From a virus: DNA of 20,217 nt. The stretch covers positions 1 through 20,217 of the IMG/VR virus record IMGVR_UViG_3300051212_000104. The stretch is one strand, 5' to 3'. Below are positions 28 through 13,012 of the stretch, piece by piece. The position numbers and the translations under genes are program-made. The notes below the pieces were generated by a model, which did no database searches, was not told the DNA's origin, and worked only from the letters and a program-made list of their open reading frames with translations. Position 1 is the stretch's first letter. Every line of letters begins with the position of its first letter.

Positions 28-633
28 ATGATTAGAGAAATTGAGAACTTTCTAACAGACGAAGAATGCGATTACCTAGAAAATTTTGCACGAAACAATA
101 AAATATGGGATGTTACAGAATCTCATTATAATGAAAATGGAACAATTATTTATGACCATAGACCTTGGGAAAATAGAGTAGCAACACTTAATACTTTGAT
201 GAAAGCTGATCAAAAAGTTGTTGATATGCTAAGAGAAATTATTCAAAGACTAAAGCCAATCATAGATGAATTTTTTGAAGTAGATGCTGAGCCAACAAAC
301 CCAGCAATTGTAAGATGGCCTGTTGGCACATTTCAATTTCCACATGCTGATAAAGAATTACACGAGGGCCCAGACGCAGGAACAGAAAATGATTTCCCTT
401 GGTATGATTTAGGAACAATATTTTATTTAAATGATGACTATACTGGAGGAGAGCTACATTTCCCTAGACAAGAAGTTGCATTTAAGCCAAAGCGTAAAGC
501 AGTTTATTTCTTCCCTGGAGATAAATATTTTATTCATGGGGTGGACAAAGTTTTGTCTGGAACCAGATATACTTCCCCTTGGTTTTGGACAATTAGAGAG
601 CTGAAAGGTGAGAGAAGACATGTCAGCTGGTAA
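28..633 (+). CDS. 2OG-Fe(II) dioxygenase, prolyl-4-hydroxylase type (paralog 1 of 3)
   Basis: This 201-residue protein has the double-stranded beta-helix signature of 2-oxoglutarate/Fe(II) oxygenases. The iron-binding HxD is H106-A-D108, the distal histidine is H170 (in YFIHGVDK), and R180 (in SGTRYTS) is the likely 2-oxoglutarate carboxylate anchor. Between them lies the family's YLNDDYTGGELHFP stretch (about 133-146). Such enzymes couple decarboxylation of 2-oxoglutarate to hydroxylation of a protein side chain or small molecule; the substrate cannot be read from sequence. All catalytic residues are present. The ATG at 28 is chosen because the fold typically begins right before an IENFLT-like strand. 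The frame is open to the window edge, so a longer upstream start is not excluded. Upstream purines (GGAG at 13-16, AAGGA at 22-26) are a poorly spaced ribosome site. The gene overlaps the next by 14 nt. Confidence 0.88.
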   Translation: MIREIENFLTDEECDYLENFARNNKIWDVTESHYNENGTIIYDHRPWENRVATLNTLMKADQKVVDMLREIIQRLKPIIDEFFEVDAEPTNPAIVRWPVGTFQFPHADKELHEGPDAGTENDFPWYDLGTIFYLNDDYTGGELHFPRQEVAFKPKRKAVYFFPGDKYFIHGVDKVLSGTRYTSPWFWTIRELKGERRHVSW

Positions 634-1372
634 TATTGAAGCATTAAATCAAAAGTATCCAGGATTAAAAGTTTGGAAAGATGATTGCTTTACTATTGAA
701 AATTTTGTTACAGAAGATGAAGCAAAAAGAATAATTCAATATTTAGAGTATTTAGTTGAAGTAGGTAGACTGCAATGGAATCAAATATCTTTTTATGATT
801 CTTATGCAATGGGATTCTGGGACTCAGATCCAATGCTAAAAGAATTTGGTTTTGAAGAAGATTATTTCCAAAGACTAAAAGCTAAAATTAAAAAAGCAGG
901 AGAAGATTTATTTGGAATTAAATGGGCAGAGATTAGTTATCATGCTCAAAAATGGATTCCTGGTGCATTTGCAGACTTCCACTCAGATAATACTGATTTA
1001 GAGGGTAACCCTACTGCTTTTGAAAGAAGCAGATATGCAGCATTTATGTATTTAAATGATAATTTTGAGGGTGGACTTTTGAACTATAGAGATTATGATA
1101 TTTCTATAAAGCCTAAAACAGGACTGATAGCTATTTTTGCTGGTGGGTTTGGAAACGAGCATGAAGTTACAACTGTTAAAAATGAACAAAGATACACTAT
1201 TGGATCGTTTTGGGACGATGCTGCAAACGAATATACAGATGAACAAAGAGAACGTTGGGCCGCAGAACTTGCAGAGACAAGAAAAGAACAAGATGGTCAA
1301 TATAAAGAATGGGCTAAAAATAAAGAAGCTGGCAATGCCCCAATTTATTATGGCAAAGGAGAAAAACAATGA
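620..1372 (+). CDS. 2OG-Fe(II) dioxygenase (paralog 2 of 3)
   Basis: This is a 250-residue protein counted from the ATG at 620. The iron triad is H121-S-D123 and H181, with R191 (in EQRYTIGSFW) as the predicted 2-oxoglutarate binder. The strand FMYLNDNFEGG followed by SIKPKTG matches the same region of the two flanking genes, so the three are paralogs. The C-terminus (about 205-250) is a charged, probably helical tail that the other two lack. An in-frame GTG at 608 would add four residues. ATG 620 is preferred because AGGTGAG at 605-611 is well spaced from it. The start lies inside the previous gene and the stop overlaps the next start (ATGA), implying translational coupling. The substrate is unknown; modification of a virion protein, a host protein or a nucleotide are all possible. 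Confidence 0.88.
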   Translation: MSAGNIEALNQKYPGLKVWKDDCFTIENFVTEDEAKRIIQYLEYLVEVGRLQWNQISFYDSYAMGFWDSDPMLKEFGFEEDYFQRLKAKIKKAGEDLFGIKWAEISYHAQKWIPGAFADFHSDNTDLEGNPTAFERSRYAAFMYLNDNFEGGLLNYRDYDISIKPKTGLIAIFAGGFGNEHEVTTVKNEQRYTIGSFWDDAANEYTDEQRERWAAELAETRKEQDGQYKEWAKNKEAGNAPIYYGKGEKQ

Positions 1373-2079
1373 CAGAAGAAAACCAACAGTTAAATGAATC
1401 GCAACACAATCCTGGTGCAGGCCTAAATGTAGATCCAACTAGTAGCCTAACCAAATTTTCAGATAAAATACTTTACTATAAGAATGCTCTGCCAGACATT
1501 TACAATTTAGTAAAAGATTTAGATGCTTATCAAGAACAATATAATAGTTCTTCTTCATGGATTGCTCCTTGGGAAGATTGGCTGTCTAATAATGACTCAA
1601 CCGATATTTATGGAGAGCAAAGAACTGGCTATTTTAGTGGACCAAAAGGTTCTTCAGATAACATATTGCATGAATATTCTGAGTATGACGCAAAATCTAA
1701 ATCTATTTCTGTTTCAGTAAAAGAAGCTTTGGACAGTTTAGTATTGGATTATGCAAAAAATACAGATACTGTAAACTATGGATATCTACCAAATACTTAT
1801 TTTATTAGAAAGTATAGACCAGAAAAGGGAATGGGTGAGCATTTTGACAAGTACCCAGATGGTTCAAATGAAACAACACTTTCAGCTGTAATCTATGTTA
1901 ATGACGACTATAATGATGGACAAATCGAGTTTCCAGAATATGAGCTTTCTATTAAGCCAGAAGCAGGAAGCATATTATTTTTCCCATCAGGTCCAGACTA
2001 TCTACACATAGCAAGACCAGCAGGACTTGGCGCAAGAAGACTTATTATTCCAATATTCTGGTACGCTAACCAGGAATAA
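1369..2079 (+). CDS. 2OG-Fe(II) dioxygenase (paralog 3 of 3)
   Basis: This 236-residue protein has H158-F-D160 and H213 as iron ligands and R223 or R224 as the 2-oxoglutarate anchor. The intervening IYVNDDYNDGQIEFP and SIKPEAGSILFFPSG parallel the other two oxygenases. The first ~40 residues are low-complexity and polar and are not part of the catalytic fold. The start overlaps the previous stop (ATGA), with AGGAG at 1357-1361 as a well-spaced ribosome site. The stop is one base from the next ATG, which puts the LamG-domain protein in the same translational unit. The substrate and need for three enzymes are unknown. The catalytic set is complete, so the gene does not look like a decayed duplicate. 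Confidence 0.87.
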   Translation: MTEENQQLNESQHNPGAGLNVDPTSSLTKFSDKILYYKNALPDIYNLVKDLDAYQEQYNSSSSWIAPWEDWLSNNDSTDIYGEQRTGYFSGPKGSSDNILHEYSEYDAKSKSISVSVKEALDSLVLDYAKNTDTVNYGYLPNTYFIRKYRPEKGMGEHFDKYPDGSNETTLSAVIYVNDDYNDGQIEFPEYELSIKPEAGSILFFPSGPDYLHIARPAGLGARRLIIPIFWYANQE

Positions 2080-2080
2080 A

Positions 2081-3811
2081 ATGTCATATCAGCTAAAGGT
2101 TATTAAAGATAACCCAATTGGATTTTGGATGCTCGAAGAGTCATCTGGAACAGTTGCGTCTGATAAATCTGGCTGTGGTAATAATGGAACATATGTTGGA
2201 GGCATTATTTCAAACATGCTTCCCATAGTTCCAGGAGGAGTTTCTGGTAATAAAATAACTAATACTTCGTATATAACACTACCAGTTACAAAAAATTATT
2301 ACGGGCTATTGTCTTACTCAGCTTTAGCTAATAAAAATGTTTCAGAAAAAGCATTTACGTTAGAAGTTTGGATAGCGCCAGATATATCTAGCTCTGGTGC
2401 TATTCCGTTGCTTGCGGATAGCACAAATTTTATAGGATTATATTGGGACAATACTGGAAATATAGTATTCTCAGTCTCTTCTAATGAAAGAGTATCTTAT
2501 CCAGTTCCTTATAGCAAAAAATCATTACATATTGTTGGAGTTTACACTGGCACATCTATATCTTTGTATTTAGACAGTATTCTTGTTGCTACAAAAAATT
2601 TATATAATTTTAAATTTACAAACTCTACAAGCTCTTTCTGGATTGGTCCAACATCAAACCCGTCAGATTCATTTATAGTAGATGCCCCAGCAATATACAG
2701 ATATGCTTTAAGTTCAACATCAATCAGAAGACATTTTGTTGAAGGAAGTATTTCTAAAGATCCTATACAAATAGCTTTTCCAGATGAAGGCGTATTATTT
2801 AGTCTTAATGATATGAAAATTAAACCACAAATGATTTATACCTATCCCAAAAATCGTAGTTGGTCAGAGATTGCAGATGGAACAACAACATATTATGATC
2901 CAATAAATAACTATATTACTTTTTACGATATTGATTTAACTGGAGCAAAATCATACACTTATACTGATTCATTTTCCGTTCCAACAGAAATCGGATTAAT
3001 TTCTTCTAAAATTGAATGGCGAAATGATTATGGTATAACAGTTAGAACTAGTGTAGACGGAACTAATTGGATATCATGTACAAATGGAGATGCAATTCCT
3101 CAATATAAAAAAGGATCATTTAGCACATCTGGAATGTTGTATGTAGAAATAACTATGTCTACTCCTGATATAACAAAATTTAATCCAAGACTATTATTTT
3201 TTACAATAAGCTTCTTTTCAGACAAAGATTACTATGCAGATAATTTTGGAGACAAGATATCCTCAACTTCAGAATATACTCTTGGATCCATTAACTACCC
3301 AGTACTGTCTAGAAATTATTCTAATGGCATAAGGTCTGTAAATCCTTTTACCCTAAATACAACGTCTAATATTAAATCAATAGAGATGTTTTATACCCCA
3401 AATGGAACAGGTGCTTTTGGACTAGTATCAGCGACTGGAACGGGGTATTCGTGGAACGGATCAGGAGCTATATCTAAATTAAATATAGACAAGATATATG
3501 TAAATGGAATAGATAGGACCTCTGCCACAAATATAAGCTCTTGGCTCACAGATGGACAACCCCATCATATTGTTATAGTATTCGCAAACTCAGTTACTAC
3601 ATCTATTAATTTTAATAATGGTTCTGCTACTGGGCATCTTTATAACAATATAACTACGTATACAAAGGAGCTAACCCAGGCCATAGTAACCCAACACTAT
3701 AATTTATATGTAGGAAAACCATCTACAACTGCCCAAGAGCCAACCATCACACTGACAGAATTGGTCCCTAAATATTATAATAATGACTGGGTGGTAATTC
3801 AAACAGTATAA
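2081..3811 (+). CDS. LamG/concanavalin A-like domain protein, candidate virion adhesin or decoration protein
   Basis: This is a 576-residue protein. The N-terminal ~225 residues carry a LamG-type jelly-roll: the entry motif NPIGFWMLEESSG (about 11-23), D28-x-SG, an NNGTYVGG turn, then FTLEVWIAPD (about 92-101) and a closing YRYALSSTSIRRHF segment. LamG-like folds commonly bind glycans. The middle (about 225-400) is beta-rich and unrecognised. The C-terminal ~170 residues look like a second jelly-roll, with a PHHIVIVFAN strand. No signal peptide or membrane segment is seen, which fits a virion component. The ATG at 2081 has AGGA at 2072-2075. A longer in-frame start at 2027 would run inside the preceding gene and is not favoured. 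The gene is coupled to the oxygenases and sits upstream of the head genes, an unusual place for a tail fibre. It could be capsid-attached, but that is inference. Confidence 0.72.
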   Translation: MSYQLKVIKDNPIGFWMLEESSGTVASDKSGCGNNGTYVGGIISNMLPIVPGGVSGNKITNTSYITLPVTKNYYGLLSYSALANKNVSEKAFTLEVWIAPDISSSGAIPLLADSTNFIGLYWDNTGNIVFSVSSNERVSYPVPYSKKSLHIVGVYTGTSISLYLDSILVATKNLYNFKFTNSTSSFWIGPTSNPSDSFIVDAPAIYRYALSSTSIRRHFVEGSISKDPIQIAFPDEGVLFSLNDMKIKPQMIYTYPKNRSWSEIADGTTTYYDPINNYITFYDIDLTGAKSYTYTDSFSVPTEIGLISSKIEWRNDYGITVRTSVDGTNWISCTNGDAIPQYKKGSFSTSGMLYVEITMSTPDITKFNPRLLFFTISFFSDKDYYADNFGDKISSTSEYTLGSINYPVLSRNYSNGIRSVNPFTLNTTSNIKSIEMFYTPNGTGAFGLVSATGTGYSWNGSGAISKLNIDKIYVNGIDRTSATNISSWLTDGQPHHIVIVFANSVTTSINFNNGSATGHLYNNITTYTKELTQAIVTQHYNLYVGKPSTTAQEPTITLTELVPKYYNNDWVVIQTV

Positions 3812-3854: not shown

Positions 3855-4214
3855 ATGGTAAAATATAATCCTATGAACATTAATAAATTGAGCCAGTCAG
3901 TTGTAGAAGAGACGACCTTAGGGATCTATGTCTGGGAAATGCCAGACGGTAGATGGATTGGCGATGACGATGGAAACTTTTTATCGGTAACCTCTAAAAA
4001 GGGTAACAAGGTCAAGATAGATGCCTTAGCCAGAGAAGTTAGATCGTATGGAATATATGAGGGCAAGCCAAAATTTTTGGCAGGTCGTAGAAAAATTGAT
4101 GACGAAGAATTTGCTCATCAAAAACAAAGATTAGAATGGGGCCTAGTTCCAGATCCTTATGATATTGGAAACTACAAGGACGAAATAAAAGCCATGAAAG
4201 GCGGAAGACAATAA
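3855..4214 (+). CDS. Conserved-looking hypothetical protein upstream of portal
   Basis: I do not recognise this 119-residue soluble protein. It is rich in charged and aromatic residues, with a WEMPDGRWIGDDDGNF segment near residue 30 and a basic C-terminus. It has no signal peptide or membrane segment. Its stop overlaps the portal start (TAATG), so it belongs to the head operon. A role in packaging or portal assembly is possible from position only. No Shine-Dalgarno sequence precedes the ATG at 3855, which could be leaderless. If the TATAAA -10 is used, the start would shift to the ATG at 3873, losing six residues. Confidence 0.72.
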   Translation: MVKYNPMNINKLSQSVVEETTLGIYVWEMPDGRWIGDDDGNFLSVTSKKGNKVKIDALAREVRSYGIYEGKPKFLAGRRKIDDEEFAHQKQRLEWGLVPDPYDIGNYKDEIKAMKGGRQ

Positions 4215-5791
4215 TGAATTTTATTGAAGACGAAGAAGATTCAGTTCACGTAACAACAGCAGCAGATTTATCAAGATTTGCCAATGTATCGATTGAAAAA
4301 ACAACAGATGAGTTTAAGCTAGAAGGCGAAGATCTTAAAAAGATTCATGGCTTAGGACCAGCATTTAAGCGTAAAATGACTAGAGATCTTCAAAAAAGAT
4401 TTGTTGGTCTTGACGGTGCACAAACTCAACAAAATCTTTTAGCACAAGCAATTACTGGATATGCCCTTTTTGATTTAATTGAGCCTCCATTTAATTTAGA
4501 TTATTTGTCTAAAGTATATGAAATATCTCCATACAACTACGCAGCAATAAATGCCAAAGTAGCAAATATTGTTGGCTTAGGATATGATTTTGTTGAAACA
4601 AGAAAAGCAAAAGAAGCATTGGACAATATTGATGATCAAAAACAATTAGACCGTGCTCGTCGTAAATTAAATAAATTAAGACAAGAACTTGATTCTTGGC
4701 TTGAAGATTGTAATGAAGAAGAAACATTTATTGAAACTTTAATTAAAGCATACACAGATGTTGAAGCAACAGGAAATGGATACATAGAAATTAGCAGAAC
4801 AACATCTGGCAAAATTGGGTATATAGGACACATTCCATCAAAGACAATGCGTGTACGTAGACTTCGTGATGGGTTTGTTCAATTGCTATATGGCAAAGCA
4901 GTCTTTTTCCGTAATTTTGGAGATACAGAAACTCCTAATCCAATTGCAGGACAAGAAGATCGCCCAAATGAAATTATTCATTTAAAGAAATATACCCCAA
5001 CAAATAACTATTATGGTATCCCAGACATTGTTGCAGCGGTTAATGCTATGGCTGGAAATGAGTTTGCTGGAAAATATAACCTAGACTATTTTGAGAATAA
5101 GGCGGTTCCAAGATATATCGTTACTGTTAAGGGTGCAAAGCTTTCAGCAGAATCAGAAAGAAAGCTTCTTGAATTTTTCCAGGTTGGACTAAAAGGAAAA
5201 AATCATAGATCTCTATATATTCCCTTGCCAGCAGATAGCCCAGACTCTAAGGTTGAATTTAAAATGGAGCCAGTTGAAGCAGACGCTCAAGATTCATCCT
5301 TTAATAATTATCGTAAAATGAATAGAGATGAAATATTGTTGGCCCATAGAACTCCAATTAGCAAAATTGGTTTGCCAGAAGGAGTAAATCTATCATCAGC
5401 AAGAGATTCAGATAAAATGTTTAAGGAGCAGGTCTGCAGGCCAGCTCAAGATATTTTAGAAAGAAAATTAAATAAATTAATTTCTGAAATGACTGATGCC
5501 CTATATCTTAAATTAAATGAACTAACATTAACAGACGAAGATACCCAATCAAAGATCGATGAAAGATATTTGAGAATGCAGGTTATTACTCCTAATGAGG
5601 TTAGAATTAGAAAGGGTATGGTCCCTATTGATGGGGGAGACGAAGTAGTTAAATTAAAGCCTGAGCAGGCAGCAGAACAAAGAGCACAGGCAGGTAATAC
5701 TAGAACCAGAACTCAAGAGCGGGCTTCAAATTCACCAGATATTTCTGGGGAGGCTAGAAATCCAAAAGGTGAGGGTAGAGTAACTGCTTAA
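4214..5791 (+). CDS. Portal protein (PBSX/HK97-like family)
   Basis: This 525-residue protein is the likely dodecameric portal through which DNA is packaged and to which the connectors bind. Portal-family features include the central region with EATGNGYIEISR (about 184-195), EIIHLKKYTPTNNYYGIPDI (about 253-271), and a helical segment with HRTPISKIGLPEG (about 378-390). A charged helix (about 130-170) and a disordered polar C-terminus (about 480-525) flank the core. The length is typical. Unusually, residues 38-56 (LKKIHGLGPAFKRKM region) resemble a helix-hairpin-helix DNA-binding motif. The start overlaps the previous stop, and no strong ribosome site is seen, so coupling is likely. The prohead protease follows after 55 nt. 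Confidence 0.9.
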   Translation: MNFIEDEEDSVHVTTAADLSRFANVSIEKTTDEFKLEGEDLKKIHGLGPAFKRKMTRDLQKRFVGLDGAQTQQNLLAQAITGYALFDLIEPPFNLDYLSKVYEISPYNYAAINAKVANIVGLGYDFVETRKAKEALDNIDDQKQLDRARRKLNKLRQELDSWLEDCNEEETFIETLIKAYTDVEATGNGYIEISRTTSGKIGYIGHIPSKTMRVRRLRDGFVQLLYGKAVFFRNFGDTETPNPIAGQEDRPNEIIHLKKYTPTNNYYGIPDIVAAVNAMAGNEFAGKYNLDYFENKAVPRYIVTVKGAKLSAESERKLLEFFQVGLKGKNHRSLYIPLPADSPDSKVEFKMEPVEADAQDSSFNNYRKMNRDEILLAHRTPISKIGLPEGVNLSSARDSDKMFKEQVCRPAQDILERKLNKLISEMTDALYLKLNELTLTDEDTQSKIDERYLRMQVITPNEVRIRKGMVPIDGGDEVVKLKPEQAAEQRAQAGNTRTRTQERASNSPDISGEARNPKGEGRVTA

Positions 5792-5846: not shown

Positions 5847-7148
5847 ATGAATATTGAAAAATCATACTGGTCTTCCAATGGCGACGCCATTAGTTTATCC
5901 GTACCTTTTACTAAAGTCAACCGTGAAAAGAGAACGGTGTCTGGCTTTGCAACACTTGACAATATTGATCAAACAGGCGATCTTGTAACAGCAGAAGCTT
6001 CTCTTAAGGCATTTGAAAATTTCCGTGGAAACATTCGTGAAATGCATGGATCTAATGCTGTTGGTAAGATGGTATCCTTTAAACCAGAAACGTATTATGA
6101 TCCAAAGAGTGGAGAATTTTATAGTGGTGTATATGTAGATGCATATATTTCAAAAGGCGCACAAGATACATGGGAAAAAATTCTTGATGGTACTCTTTCT
6201 GGATTTTCAATTGGCGGAAAAATTATTGAACAAGAAAACGAAGTAAATAAGTCTACGGGACAAACAGTAAGATTTATTAAAGAATATGCTCTTATGGAGC
6301 TATCTGTAGTTGATTCTCCAGCAAATGAACTTTGTAATATTTTGTCTATTCAAAAAATGAATGGTCAACTTATGTTTAAGGGAATTGCAGCAGAAACTAA
6401 ATTGGAAAATATTTTTTATTGTGAAGAAAGCGATTCTGTTTTTATGTCAACAGAATCTTCTTTTGTTTCACCAGTTAGCGGTAAAGATGCAGAATTAATC
6501 GGTTGGGTAGAATCAAACGATGTTAATAAAGCAAAAGAAATAGATAAGATTCTTGCTTCATTTAAGAAGTCAAGATTGACGTTGCCTGATACAACAATTG
6601 CAAAACAGGCAAACGCAGAAGGAGGTAATGAAGTGTCAGAAAACACAGAAGCAGTTGCAGTAGTTGAAGAGACTCCTGTAGCAGTAGAAGAAACACCAGT
6701 TGCTGAAGCTCCAGCTGCAGAAGCAGCACCAGCAGAAGCACCTGCAGACGCTCCTGCCGAAACTCTGGAAAAAGCAGCCGACGTATCAGAAGTTGAGGTT
6801 GATGAACCTGATTTTGCAAAGATGCTTGGCGAACTTAAGGAGTTTTTCGCAGATACTCTTAACAAGACAGTAAAGGCTAATGAGACAGAAATTGCATCAG
6901 TAAAAGATTCAGTTGCAAGTCTTGCAAAGTCTTTAGAGGAAAAAGTTACAGAGTTAACAATACAGAATGCTGATCTCTCAAAGACATTGGCAGATGCGCT
7001 AAATGGCGTAGAAAAGCGCATTGAGGCAGTCGAATCTGAGACTGCAATTAAGAAGTCCTCTGACCTCGGCGGGTCACAGGAAGTAGCAATACAAAAATCA
7101 AAGTGGAACGGTTCTTTCCTCGGTTCCGTATCAGACTTAATTCGATAA
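5847..7148 (+). CDS. Prohead protease (S78/XkdF-like) fused to scaffold-like C-terminal domain
   Basis: This 433-residue protein has two parts. Residues ~15-165 are a prohead serine protease: histidine H67 in REMHGS, a serine in GTLSGFSIGG (S121 most likely, S118 possible), and ELSVVDSPAN (151-160), a conserved closing motif. It would cleave scaffold and itself during procapsid maturation. Residues ~262-310 are an acidic, Ala/Pro/Glu-rich linker. Residues ~320-405 form a heptad-like coiled coil typical of scaffolds. The capsid protein lacks a long N-terminal delta-like region, so this C-terminal part is the likely scaffold. The ATG at 5847 has no Shine-Dalgarno sequence but fits leaderless initiation. 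A second, internal start at 6633 probably makes the scaffold alone. Confidence 0.87.
   Translation: MNIEKSYWSSNGDAISLSVPFTKVNREKRTVSGFATLDNIDQTGDLVTAEASLKAFENFRGNIREMHGSNAVGKMVSFKPETYYDPKSGEFYSGVYVDAYISKGAQDTWEKILDGTLSGFSIGGKIIEQENEVNKSTGQTVRFIKEYALMELSVVDSPANELCNILSIQKMNGQLMFKGIAAETKLENIFYCEESDSVFMSTESSFVSPVSGKDAELIGWVESNDVNKAKEIDKILASFKKSRLTLPDTTIAKQANAEGGNEVSENTEAVAVVEETPVAVEETPVAEAPAAEAAPAEAPADAPAETLEKAADVSEVEVDEPDFAKMLGELKEFFADTLNKTVKANETEIASVKDSVASLAKSLEEKVTELTIQNADLSKTLADALNGVEKRIEAVESETAIKKSSDLGGSQEVAIQKSKWNGSFLGSVSDLIR
6633..7148 (+). CDS. Nested in-frame scaffold protein from internal start
   Basis: An internal GTG (codon 263 of the protease gene) is preceded by AGAAGGAGGT at 6617-6626, nearly a full anti-16S match, with 7 bases between GGAGG and the GTG. 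Translation here would give a 171-residue protein with only the acidic linker and coiled coil and no protease. This reproduces the lambda C/Nu3 arrangement, where the scaffold is a separate product of the 3' part of the protease gene. It would allow far more scaffold than protease, as assembly needs. An ATG at 6628 is out of frame and reaches a stop after 11 codons. Confidence 0.66.
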   Translation: MSENTEAVAVVEETPVAVEETPVAEAPAAEAAPAEAPADAPAETLEKAADVSEVEVDEPDFAKMLGELKEFFADTLNKTVKANETEIASVKDSVASLAKSLEEKVTELTIQNADLSKTLADALNGVEKRIEAVESETAIKKSSDLGGSQEVAIQKSKWNGSFLGSVSDLIR

Positions 7149-7169: not shown

Positions 7170-8222
7170 ATGAGCAATGAAACATTAGAAAAGACCATTG
7201 CAGCAGGTACAACTGCTACAGGTACATTCGCTTCCGCAACAGGCGGAACTGGCGTACACCGTGCTTCCGAAAACGGAAATGGTGGTCTTCTAAATCCAGA
7301 GCAGTCAGCTCGCTTCTTGGACTATATGTTCGACGCAACCGTAATTGGTAAAGTTGCACGTACAGTACGCATGAGAGCAGACACTACTGAGATTGATCGT
7401 ATGTCAGTTGGTGAGAAACTGATGAAGATTGCTACTGAAGGTGACGACACAAACAGCGCAAATTCAGGAGTAACTTTCTCAAAGATTTCTCTAACAACAA
7501 AGAAGCTCCGTCTTGATTGGGAACTCTCAACAGAGTCCCTAGAAGACAACATCGAGGGTGCAGATCTTGAAGATCATATTGCACGTTTGATGGCAACACA
7601 GGCAGGTAATGATATTGAAGATGTTGTTCTCAATGGAGACACAGCACTTTCTTCAGACCAGCTTTACAAAGCATTTGATGGTGTAGTTAAGAAGTCAAAG
7701 GCTAATGGACACGTAGTTGACGCAGCAGGTGCTAACGTATCTCGTGCAGTATTCAATTCAGCATTGAAGGCACTTCCACGTAAGTACAAGCAACGTCGTA
7801 CTGATCTTCGTTTCCTTTCAGGAAGCAATTTGATCCAGGACTACTTGTATTCAACAAGCCAAAATATTCAGAACGTAAACCCACAAGATATTGCATCAAG
7901 CATTATCCGTGGAGAAGTTGCACCACTTGGTGGTCCAGCAGGTTACGTAGCACCATATGCATTTGGTATTCCAATTGTTGAAGTTCCTCTATTGAAGGAA
8001 ACTCAGACAGGTGATTACTCAGGTGCAGCAGGATCTCACGGAGATATCCACTTGACATTCCCAAATAACGTAGTTATTGGTATCAAGCGTGATGTAACTG
8101 TTTACAGATTCTTCTGGCCAAAGAAGGACTCAATCGAGTACACAATGTTTACTCGTGTAGGCGTTCAGATTGAACAAGCAGATGCTTGGGTAGTCGTAAA
8201 GAACGTTAAGGTCGCTTCTTAA
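7170..8222 (+). CDS. Major capsid protein (HK97 fold)
   Basis: This 350-residue protein sits right after the protease/scaffold gene. Its features suit an HK97-type capsid protein: a short flexible Gly/Thr/Ala-rich N-terminus (about 1-38), the segment NPEQSARFLDYMFDATVIG (42-60) leading into RTVRMRADTTEIDRMSVGE, a long spine-helix-like region with ESLEDNIEGADLEDHIARLM (about 122-141), and a late FPNNVVIGIKRDVTVYRFFW segment. It resembles actinophage capsid proteins. There is no large delta-like domain. Arginine is encoded almost entirely by CGT/CGC here, whereas most neighbours favour AGA, indicating selection for high expression. The ribosome site AAGGTAGGTG precedes the ATG, and a strong terminator lies 19 bases after the stop. 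Confidence 0.9.
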   Translation: MSNETLEKTIAAGTTATGTFASATGGTGVHRASENGNGGLLNPEQSARFLDYMFDATVIGKVARTVRMRADTTEIDRMSVGEKLMKIATEGDDTNSANSGVTFSKISLTTKKLRLDWELSTESLEDNIEGADLEDHIARLMATQAGNDIEDVVLNGDTALSSDQLYKAFDGVVKKSKANGHVVDAAGANVSRAVFNSALKALPRKYKQRRTDLRFLSGSNLIQDYLYSTSQNIQNVNPQDIASSIIRGEVAPLGGPAGYVAPYAFGIPIVEVPLLKETQTGDYSGAAGSHGDIHLTFPNNVVIGIKRDVTVYRFFWPKKDSIEYTMFTRVGVQIEQADAWVVVKNVKVAS

Positions 8223-12356: not shown

Positions 12357-12689
12357 TTGGCAACAACAGTATATAATGTAGAAGAGATCGAACTACAAAA
12401 TGGGGCTAAAGCAAAACTAAAGCCACTATCAATTTTTGATCTTCGTGAATTCATGAAAGCTATGTCTAAAGCATCAGACGTACAAACAGAAGATGAAACA
12501 ATTACAGTTCTTATAGATGCATGTGCAGTAGCATTACGTTCACAGCTACCAGAATTAGTAGCAGATAGAGAAGCACTAGAAAAAGCATTGGATGTTCCAA
12601 CAATCAATCGCATACTTGAAGTGTGTGGAGGGATTAAGATGGACGACCCAAACCTACTAGCGGCAGCGGTTCTGGCTGGTCAGAACTAG
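12357..12689 (+). CDS. Tail assembly chaperone, short form (G-like)
   Basis: This 110-residue protein initiates at a TTG, decided by GAGGAGG ending 6 bases upstream. The opening (ELQNGAKAKLKPLSIFDLREF, about residues 11-31) is typical of tail assembly chaperones: a short strand-turn and then a helix. The rest is helical, with a cysteine-containing region near residues 90-95. With the longer frameshift product it coats the tape measure protein during tail assembly and does not enter the virion. A small fraction of ribosomes is expected to slip at 12647-12653. Confidence 0.82.
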   Translation: MATTVYNVEEIELQNGAKAKLKPLSIFDLREFMKAMSKASDVQTEDETITVLIDACAVALRSQLPELVADREALEKALDVPTINRILEVCGGIKMDDPNLLAAAVLAGQN

Positions 12690-13012
12690 ATTTAGCCGCT
12701 TTAGAAGGAGAAGTATTTCTCCTAGGACATTGGAAGAATTACCAGGAGTTAGAAGAAAATCTTTCAATGCCAGAGTTGATTCAAACTTTGAAAGCAATGC
12801 ATAAAAAGGAAGGCGATAGCCGAAAGTTTATGGCTTCAATGCAAGGAGTGAATTTAACTGAAGAAAATACAGAAGGGCCTAGTTTCGAAGACATCAGAAG
12901 ACGAGCATTAGGAATTAATGCAGCAGCAGATGATGTCGTTTCATTACAAGGATCGCTTGCTACGCAAGCAGGATTTGGAATTGGAGCAGGGTTAGGCTAC
13001 TCACAGGAGTAA
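12357..13012 (+). CDS. Tail assembly chaperone, -1 frameshift fusion (GT-like)
   Basis: Ribosomal slippage after codon 99 joins the G-like frame (12357-12653) to the -1 frame (reading resumes at 12653, stop 13010-13012), giving a 218-residue protein. The -1 frame has no stop between 12653 and 13010 and encodes a Gly/Ser linker (PTSGSGSG), then ELDLAALEGEVFLLGHW and a helical region, which I associate with T domains of actinophage chaperones. The separate reading frame has no good start or ribosome site of its own before the ATG at 12767, where half the conserved domain would be lost. The tape measure ATG follows 3 bases after the stop. Confidence 0.82.
12647..12700 (+). promoter_or_regulatory. 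Programmed -1 frameshift signal (slippery heptamer plus stem)
   Basis: C CCA AAC (12647-12653) has the X XXY YYZ pattern in the zero frame. Five bases later an outer stem, AGCGGC (12659-12664) with GCCGCT (12695-12700), encloses a 6-bp inner hairpin, GTTCTG (12669-12674) with CAGAAC (12681-12686), looped by GCTGGT. The outer pairing spans the G stop codon. Spacing and structure suit stimulation of -1 slippage. Confidence 0.8.

Follow-up and report, generated by a model that had tools for sequence, protein, structure and literature searches.

A candidate cassette for repeat-specific prolyl hydroxylation of a virion stalk protein in freshwater tailed phages

What would a tailed phage modify with several 2-oxoglutarate (2OG)-Fe(II) oxygenases encoded side by side next to its head genes? 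The question is raised by the left end of IMGVR_UViG_3300051212_000104, a 20,217-base virus fragment analyzed here over its whole length (the window), which opens with three such genes, oxyA, oxyB, and oxyC, followed by a gene for a LamG-domain protein. 2OG oxygenases are common yet unexplained in aquatic phages, and the viral use of prolyl 4-hydroxylase (P4H) "remains cryptic" (PMC9301287). Judged by gene order, the trio is the right-hand (3′) end of a larger oxygenase island of lake-water viruses, and comparisons among relatives indicate that the oxygenase set of this island and the repeat type of a stalk protein encoded on its other side change together in evolution. The island is probably a repeat-specific prolyl-hydroxylation cassette for that virion stalk protein.

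The open reading frames (ORFs) at 28–633, 608/620–1372, and 1369–2079, all on the plus strand, each score above the curated cut-off of Pfam 2OG-FeII_Oxy_3 (PF13640). The HxD motif, distal His, and 2OG-anchoring Arg can be read in oxyA (PHAD/IHG/GTRY), oxyB (FHSD/EHE/EQRY), and oxyC (EHFD/LHI/ARR), and a core of Y-[LV]-N-D-[DN]-[YF] is common to the three. Sharing 25–34% mutual identity over the aligned core, they are true paralogues, as the initial annotation had proposed. The catalytic positions are invariant among orthologues of oxyA (HxD 115–117, H179, and R189; 30 orthologues), oxyB (H121, D123, H181, and R191; 24 orthologues), and oxyC (H158/D160/H213), and purifying selection relative to the nearest relative is strong, with ratios of nonsynonymous to synonymous substitution (dN/dS) of ~0.04, 0.10, and 0.12 for the three oxygenases. 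Queried on its own, the oxyC protein retrieved no relative, and its orthologues were therefore taken from the gene-neighborhood survey.

The proposal of three complete, overlapping, and translationally coupled genes stands only in part. While oxyB (620–1372, with its ATG at 620) and oxyC (1369–2079) are complete, oxyA (1–633) is missing its 5′ end: position 28 offers an ATG, but the reading frame has no stop back to base 1 and orthologues start farther upstream (by 33 residues, as in L098, "MAFESALDPDIVLNYDALEDGKNVRTARKSITPSGWFGE..."), and thus the gene is truncated by the contig edge. The overlaps between oxyA and oxyB (14 nucleotides (nt)) and between oxyB and oxyC (4 nt, ATGA) are as described. 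The oxyC stop (2077–2079) and the LamG start codon (ATG at 2081) do not overlap, however, and in several relatives an extra gene lies between the array and LamG, so the coupling of the array to LamG is not conserved.

The count of three is likewise a product of the contig edge. Relatives were gathered through the portal protein, each of the oxygenases, and the LamG protein, and gene-order maps were drawn for them. The full cassette begins with a stalk protein bearing two fn3 domains and an extended Pro/Phe repeat, continues through one or two P4H-type oxygenases (Lys anchor), a DUF6065 protein, and a phrog_7084 protein to 3–6 further 2OG oxygenases, including the orthologues of oxyA, oxyB, and oxyC, and ends at LamG and the portal. 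Relatives with the same genes have 5–10 oxygenases per island (4–10 in arrays overall), and PF13640 matches number 5–13 per contig on eight long contigs, inside the island and elsewhere. The idea of a dedicated modification cassette beside the head genes is borne out by this conserved island. Of the full relatives, L098 is the closest (91% identity in the part of oxyA present in both and 91% in the portal), with the order tail-fibre-like genes, a stalk gene directly behind them, two oxygenases, DUF6065, phrog_7084 protein, oxyA–oxyB–oxyC, LamG, and portal. Its stalk of 624 amino acids (aa) comprises fn3 domains, 28 FFxPP repeats, and a Hint-like C-terminal domain; no glycosyltransferase was seen in the L098 island. 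The members of the DUF6065/phrog_7084 pair in L098 (8419–9135 and 9125–9862) both match phrog_7084 and look distantly related; phrog_7084 proteins also accompany stalks lacking Pro-Pro (PP) repeats, and DUF6065 is tied to PP-type arrays. Two array islands contain a second Pro/Phe-repeat protein with a PASTA-type-looking N-terminus (L093, 14145–14657; L052, 6003–7172).

Homologues of the stalk were retrieved without reference to the oxygenases. Their fn3 parts (two fn3 domains) are homologous, but the C-terminal repeats differ between relatives and include FFxPPx hexads, PFFPP tracts, GFTPFGFTP, GVFGFSPF, FGAFGA, and NFYNYSN, with Phe as the most frequent residue. Sequence comparison thus portrays the fn3 stalk as a fast-swapping aromatic fibre tail in related phages; L233 (7923–8729), L288, L202, and L336 carry the same fn3 stalk with very different aromatic repeats (NFYNYSN, FGAFGA, GVFGFSP, and GFTPFGFTP). 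The stalk protein was also sought among phage isolates, where phage NCTB gave the sole match, a weak one of the intein/Hint type. Hint/intein-like C-termini are frequent (e.g., L098, 5183–7057; L119, 5760–7076), the L119 stalk having Cys1 ... TxxH ... HN, with HN at its extreme C-terminus. These ends suggest self-processing unrelated to the oxygenases and, as both PP and non-PP stalks have them, the Hint domain was rejected as part of the oxygenase association.

The association itself was assessed on 110 independent contig groups, each encoding a homologous fn3 protein and entered as a single row, with at least 4 PP per 60 aa counted as a PP repeat and at least 4 oxygenases as an array. A PP repeat and an array occur together in 50 groups, neither occurs in 57, and three groups are discordant (Fisher p = 1e-27). 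The discordant groups are L314, a PP stalk with few oxygenases (a short repeat and one P4H-type oxygenase), and two arrays without PP, L161, with a Pro-rich FFPNFCP repeat, and L252, with a repeat that looks frameshifted. Removal of the contigs obtained through oxygenase queries gives 26/1/1/57 groups (PP with array, PP with few oxygenases, array without PP, and neither; p = 1e-19), and removal of glycine-rich fn3 proteins gives 50/1/2/48. A LamG tree of 75 contigs shows about 10 changes of repeat state, and in eight independent pairs taken from its supported branches the array differs in the same direction in 6–7 and in the opposite direction in none (sign test p 0.016–0.03); with repeated changes and agreeing pairs, the link between stalk and array is not the result of one inheritance event. 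One example is L152 and L305, for which the LamG proteins are 85% identical, but the former has a PFFPP stalk with six oxygenases and the latter a Pro-poor FGAFGA stalk with zero.

The oxygenase sub-families follow the repeat as well. Clusters were defined as cuts of a tree of 413 oxygenases, in which oxyA belongs to cluster B (52/52 arrays, 0/58 non-arrays), oxyB to cluster C (40/52 arrays, 0/58 others), and oxyC to the lineage-specific cluster N (6/52 arrays). Cluster A is present in 52/52 arrays and 2/58 non-arrays, both exceptions having short PPYFPP or PYFPYFP stalks, and DUF6065 is present in 52/52 arrays and 1/58 non-arrays. Outside the PP type, cluster G accompanies GVFGFSP stalks (16/16), clusters J and O accompany eight stalks of the GFTP/SFTP class, and the Pro-free FGAFGA and NFYN repeats have zero oxygenases. 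The number of oxygenases rises with the Pro fraction (rho 0.87 overall, 0.58 within arrays).

The enzymes encoded by the array most resemble protein prolyl hydroxylases. Profile searches of solved structures matched oxyA and oxyB to prolyl 3-hydroxylase 1 (P3H1) and a Bacillus P4H, and oxyC to the bacterial P4H 3itq (E = 3e-7). The structure prediction that the initial annotation had recommended for the trio was carried out for two of its members: the AlphaFold2 (AF2) models of oxyA and oxyB (predicted local distance difference test (pLDDT) scores of 91 and 93.6) match 2OG dioxygenases with a Foldseek probability of 1.00 and have the double-stranded beta-helix fold. The top matches were the viral collagen prolyl hydroxylase (vCPH) of PBCV-1, Chlamydomonas Cr-P4H (also with (Ser-Pro)5), BaP4H, and P3H1 for oxyA, and PHD2, P3H1, vCPH, and Pseudomonas putida P4H for oxyB. 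HxD and the distal His are kept in 316 of the 317 unique full-length oxygenases of relatives, among which Lys serves as the 2OG anchor in 175 and Arg in 142. The Lys type, with the P4H-like motif HxxxPVxxGxKY, includes the oxygenases directly behind the stalk gene, and the cluster A enzymes of the cassette in relatives also have Lys. The window's enzymes have the HxD...H and basic 2OG anchor of the 2OG-Fe(II) superfamily but lack the Lys-anchored HxxxPVxxGxK[YW] motif of collagen-type P4Hs, and the stalk repeats are FFxPPx or PFFPP and not the Gly-X-Y triplets of a collagen-like fibre (Pfam collagen had no match in the PP-type stalks scanned). For these two reasons oxyA, oxyB, and oxyC are classified only as P4H/P3H/PHD-like enzymes, all three by sequence, with protein prolyl hydroxylases nearest by profile, and oxyA and oxyB also by predicted fold.

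A role in DNA modification was considered and rejected, as the similarity of the oxygenases to Pfam Tet_JBP is weak and far below the cut-off and the matches among solved structures are protein prolyl hydroxylases. The PHROG labels "DNA endonuclease (V)" of phrog_2297 and phrog_274 sit on plain 2OG oxygenases; these labels were not accepted, given the same 2OG family and motif, and are likely a mis-annotation that is spreading to cyanophage records. A search of bacterial genomes with oxyA found only one short contig, the 5.3-kb L412 (JAFMJX010000128.1), which carries an oxyA orthologue and is binned in a Chitinophagaceae metagenome-assembled genome; it is probably contaminating viral DNA.

Because the cassette occurs almost exclusively with the Pro/Phe repeat, this repeat, and not LamG, is the likely target. 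The array enzymes would hydroxylate the repeat, most likely at the prolines of its FFxPPx hexads or PFFPP tracts, and may work in series, as P4H and prolyl 3-hydroxylase (P3H) do on collagen. The modified tract, stiffer or more hydrophilic, could be exposed on the virion in the form of a fibre or stalk, or could take further modification; the position behind tail-fibre-like genes and the fn3 domains are the grounds for reading the stalk as a virion fibre. DUF6065 and phrog_7084 proteins would be accessory, and the Hint domain of some stalks of both kinds would provide a separate processing step. The initial suggestion that a virion protein is hydroxylated is therefore retained as the best reading, with the covarying stalk, encoded at the opposite end of the array, in place of LamG as its object. 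A broader version, in which each aromatic repeat type has its own oxygenase set and a single fibre is modified in sequence by as many as ten hydroxylases, amounts to a repeat-chemistry code and is put forward tentatively, at a little short of an even chance.

Several points weigh against stalk hydroxylation. Both the activity and the substrate of the cassette are inferred, and the window contains no stalk gene, which would lie beyond its left end. Among the contig groups that have both an oxyA orthologue and a stalk that can be read, 50 of 52 show PP repeats and the other two unusual or broken Pro-rich forms (L161 and L252); since all are Pro-rich, a PP-type stalk gene is predicted just upstream of base 1 in the window's virus. 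The LamG-tree test depends on few independent pairs, and the fn3 tree has five supported pairs (four in the same direction, none opposite), which falls short of significance. Stalks with single-Pro SFTPYSFTP repeats have no oxygenase, from which it follows that the motif matters and that Pro alone is insufficient. The TM-scores of the fold matches are moderate (about 0.5–0.65), PHD2 is over-represented in the PDB, and fold similarity does not fix the substrate. All three window copies have Arg at the 2OG site, where collagen-type P4Hs carry Lys. Finally, a stalk gene and an array that are neighbors could be transferred together even if neither acted on the other; although LamG, equally adjacent, does not covary, module swapping upstream of it would give the same pattern.

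This last point leads to the alternative that survives best, in which the array targets another virion, host, or cell-surface molecule (sugars, EF-Tu or other host proteins, nucleic acid, or small molecules) and the stalk and array are exchanged as one tail module. The physical linkage of stalk and array fits such a module, EF-Tu is modified by bacterial P4Hs (PDB titles 5v7y and 4iw3), and the weak Tet_JBP similarity also speaks for it. Block exchange alone, though, accounts neither for the match of sub-family to repeat (A, B, and DUF6065 with PP, G with GVFGFSP, J and O with GFTP, and no oxygenase where the repeat is free of Pro) nor for the increase in oxygenase number with Pro content. The solved structures that come closest are those of protein prolyl hydroxylases and not of AlkB or Tet, and we consider this alternative unlikely. 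It is quite improbable that the stalk repeat is modified at non-Pro residues (e.g., by beta-hydroxylation of Phe, or at the variable position) with Pro serving only in the recognition motif: Phe is the commonest repeat residue, the non-PP stalks with 1–2 oxygenases are Phe-rich and Pro-poor, and the multiplicity of 2OG sub-families suggests that more than a single residue is targeted, but the Phe-rich, Pro-free repeats have no oxygenase and prolyl hydroxylases are again the nearest structures. Least probable of all is hydroxylation of the LamG protein, a plausible virion surface protein immediately adjacent in a near-contiguous reading frame, since it occupies the same place in oxygenase-free relatives and in Streptomyces phages, is separated from the array by another gene in several relatives, and, at 85% identity, is found with six oxygenases and with none.

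The LamG protein (2081–3811, plus strand; concanavalin A-like) was correctly recognized and is followed by the head genes; it is assigned to Laminin_G_3 (E = 1e-14, above the curated cut-off) and phrog_11584, with a conserved place ahead of the portal. The co-occurrence check that the initial annotation had called for went against LamG as the specific partner. LamG is downstream in freshwater relatives with or without oxygenases, including all oxygenase-free relatives with a readable downstream region, a homologue is present in 127 Streptomyces phages, and no oxygenase lies beside LamG in the annotated Streptomyces Stanwilliamsviridae examined.

The remainder of the window continues on the plus strand with a small conserved phrog_9394 protein in the interval between LamG and portal (3855–4214, PHROG match), the portal (4214–5791, ~60% identical to the portals of Stanwilliamsviridae), the head maturation protease (5847–7148), and the major capsid protein (MCP; 7170–8222, phrog_1623, in the position of the MCP of Streptomyces phages), followed by connector genes, a 237-aa protein at the tail-tube position, and the tape measure. 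Ahead of the tape measure, two short ORFs in different frames (12357–12689 and 12767–13012) lie where tail assembly chaperones, produced through programmed frameshift, are usually encoded. Of eight long cassette-bearing relatives, seven carry a WhiB gene, which points indirectly to an actinobacterial host; such a host is probable for the cassette-bearing freshwater tailed phages.

By its repeated co-evolution with the stalk, the cassette offers a concrete candidate substrate for these oxygenases, namely a virion stalk with a Pro/Phe repeat. Should this hold, a phage surface fibre would be hydroxylated in several steps, much as collagen is, by an enzyme set that is predictable from the repeat, and the repeat-chemistry code would give bacteriophages a system for hydroxylating virion proteins that is both dedicated and exchangeable. 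No description of a phage cassette of this kind was found in the open-licence literature. EGLN3-like oxygenases are widespread in phages with no target named (Phold, PMC12774648), and the phrog_61 2OG-Fe(II) oxygenases of cyanophages and other aquatic phages belong to the same broad PHROG family but are only 26–29% identical and have no known substrate. The Stanwilliamsviridae (Streptomyces BE-type phages) share the order LamG homologue, phrog_9394 homologue, portal, protease, and MCP; beside LamG they have ribonucleotide reductase, a LysM protein, and glycosyltransferases instead of a stalk and oxygenase island.

Among known systems, the hydroxylation of collagen and its viral counterparts come closest. 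In collagen, several 2OG hydroxylases (P4H, P3H1, and lysyl hydroxylase) likewise modify a Pro-rich repeat, and the oxyA and oxyB profiles match P3H1; the mimivirus collagen system is a viral example (PMC9546862). Collagen, including that of mimivirus, is built on Gly-X-Y, whereas the stalk repeat is FFxPPx or PFFPP, the carrier is a bacteriophage, and the activity is a prediction. The algal and plant P4Hs (Cr-P4H-1, PDB 3gze) give a fold match and have a comparable substrate class, short-period Pro-rich repeats (extensin-like Ser-Pro or poly-Pro), but enzymes of this type are eukaryotic and secretory, and the phage repeat alternates Pro-Pro with Phe-Phe. The PBCV-1 vCPH of a chlorovirus (PDB 5c5t), the top Foldseek match of oxyA, is also a virus-encoded enzyme of the P4H superfamily and, in the account of Eriksson 1999 as cited in PMC9301287, has been linked to hydroxyproline in viral proteins. 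It is a single enzyme of a eukaryotic virus, whereas the phage arrays comprise 4–10 enzymes in tailed phages and are tied genetically to one repeat protein.

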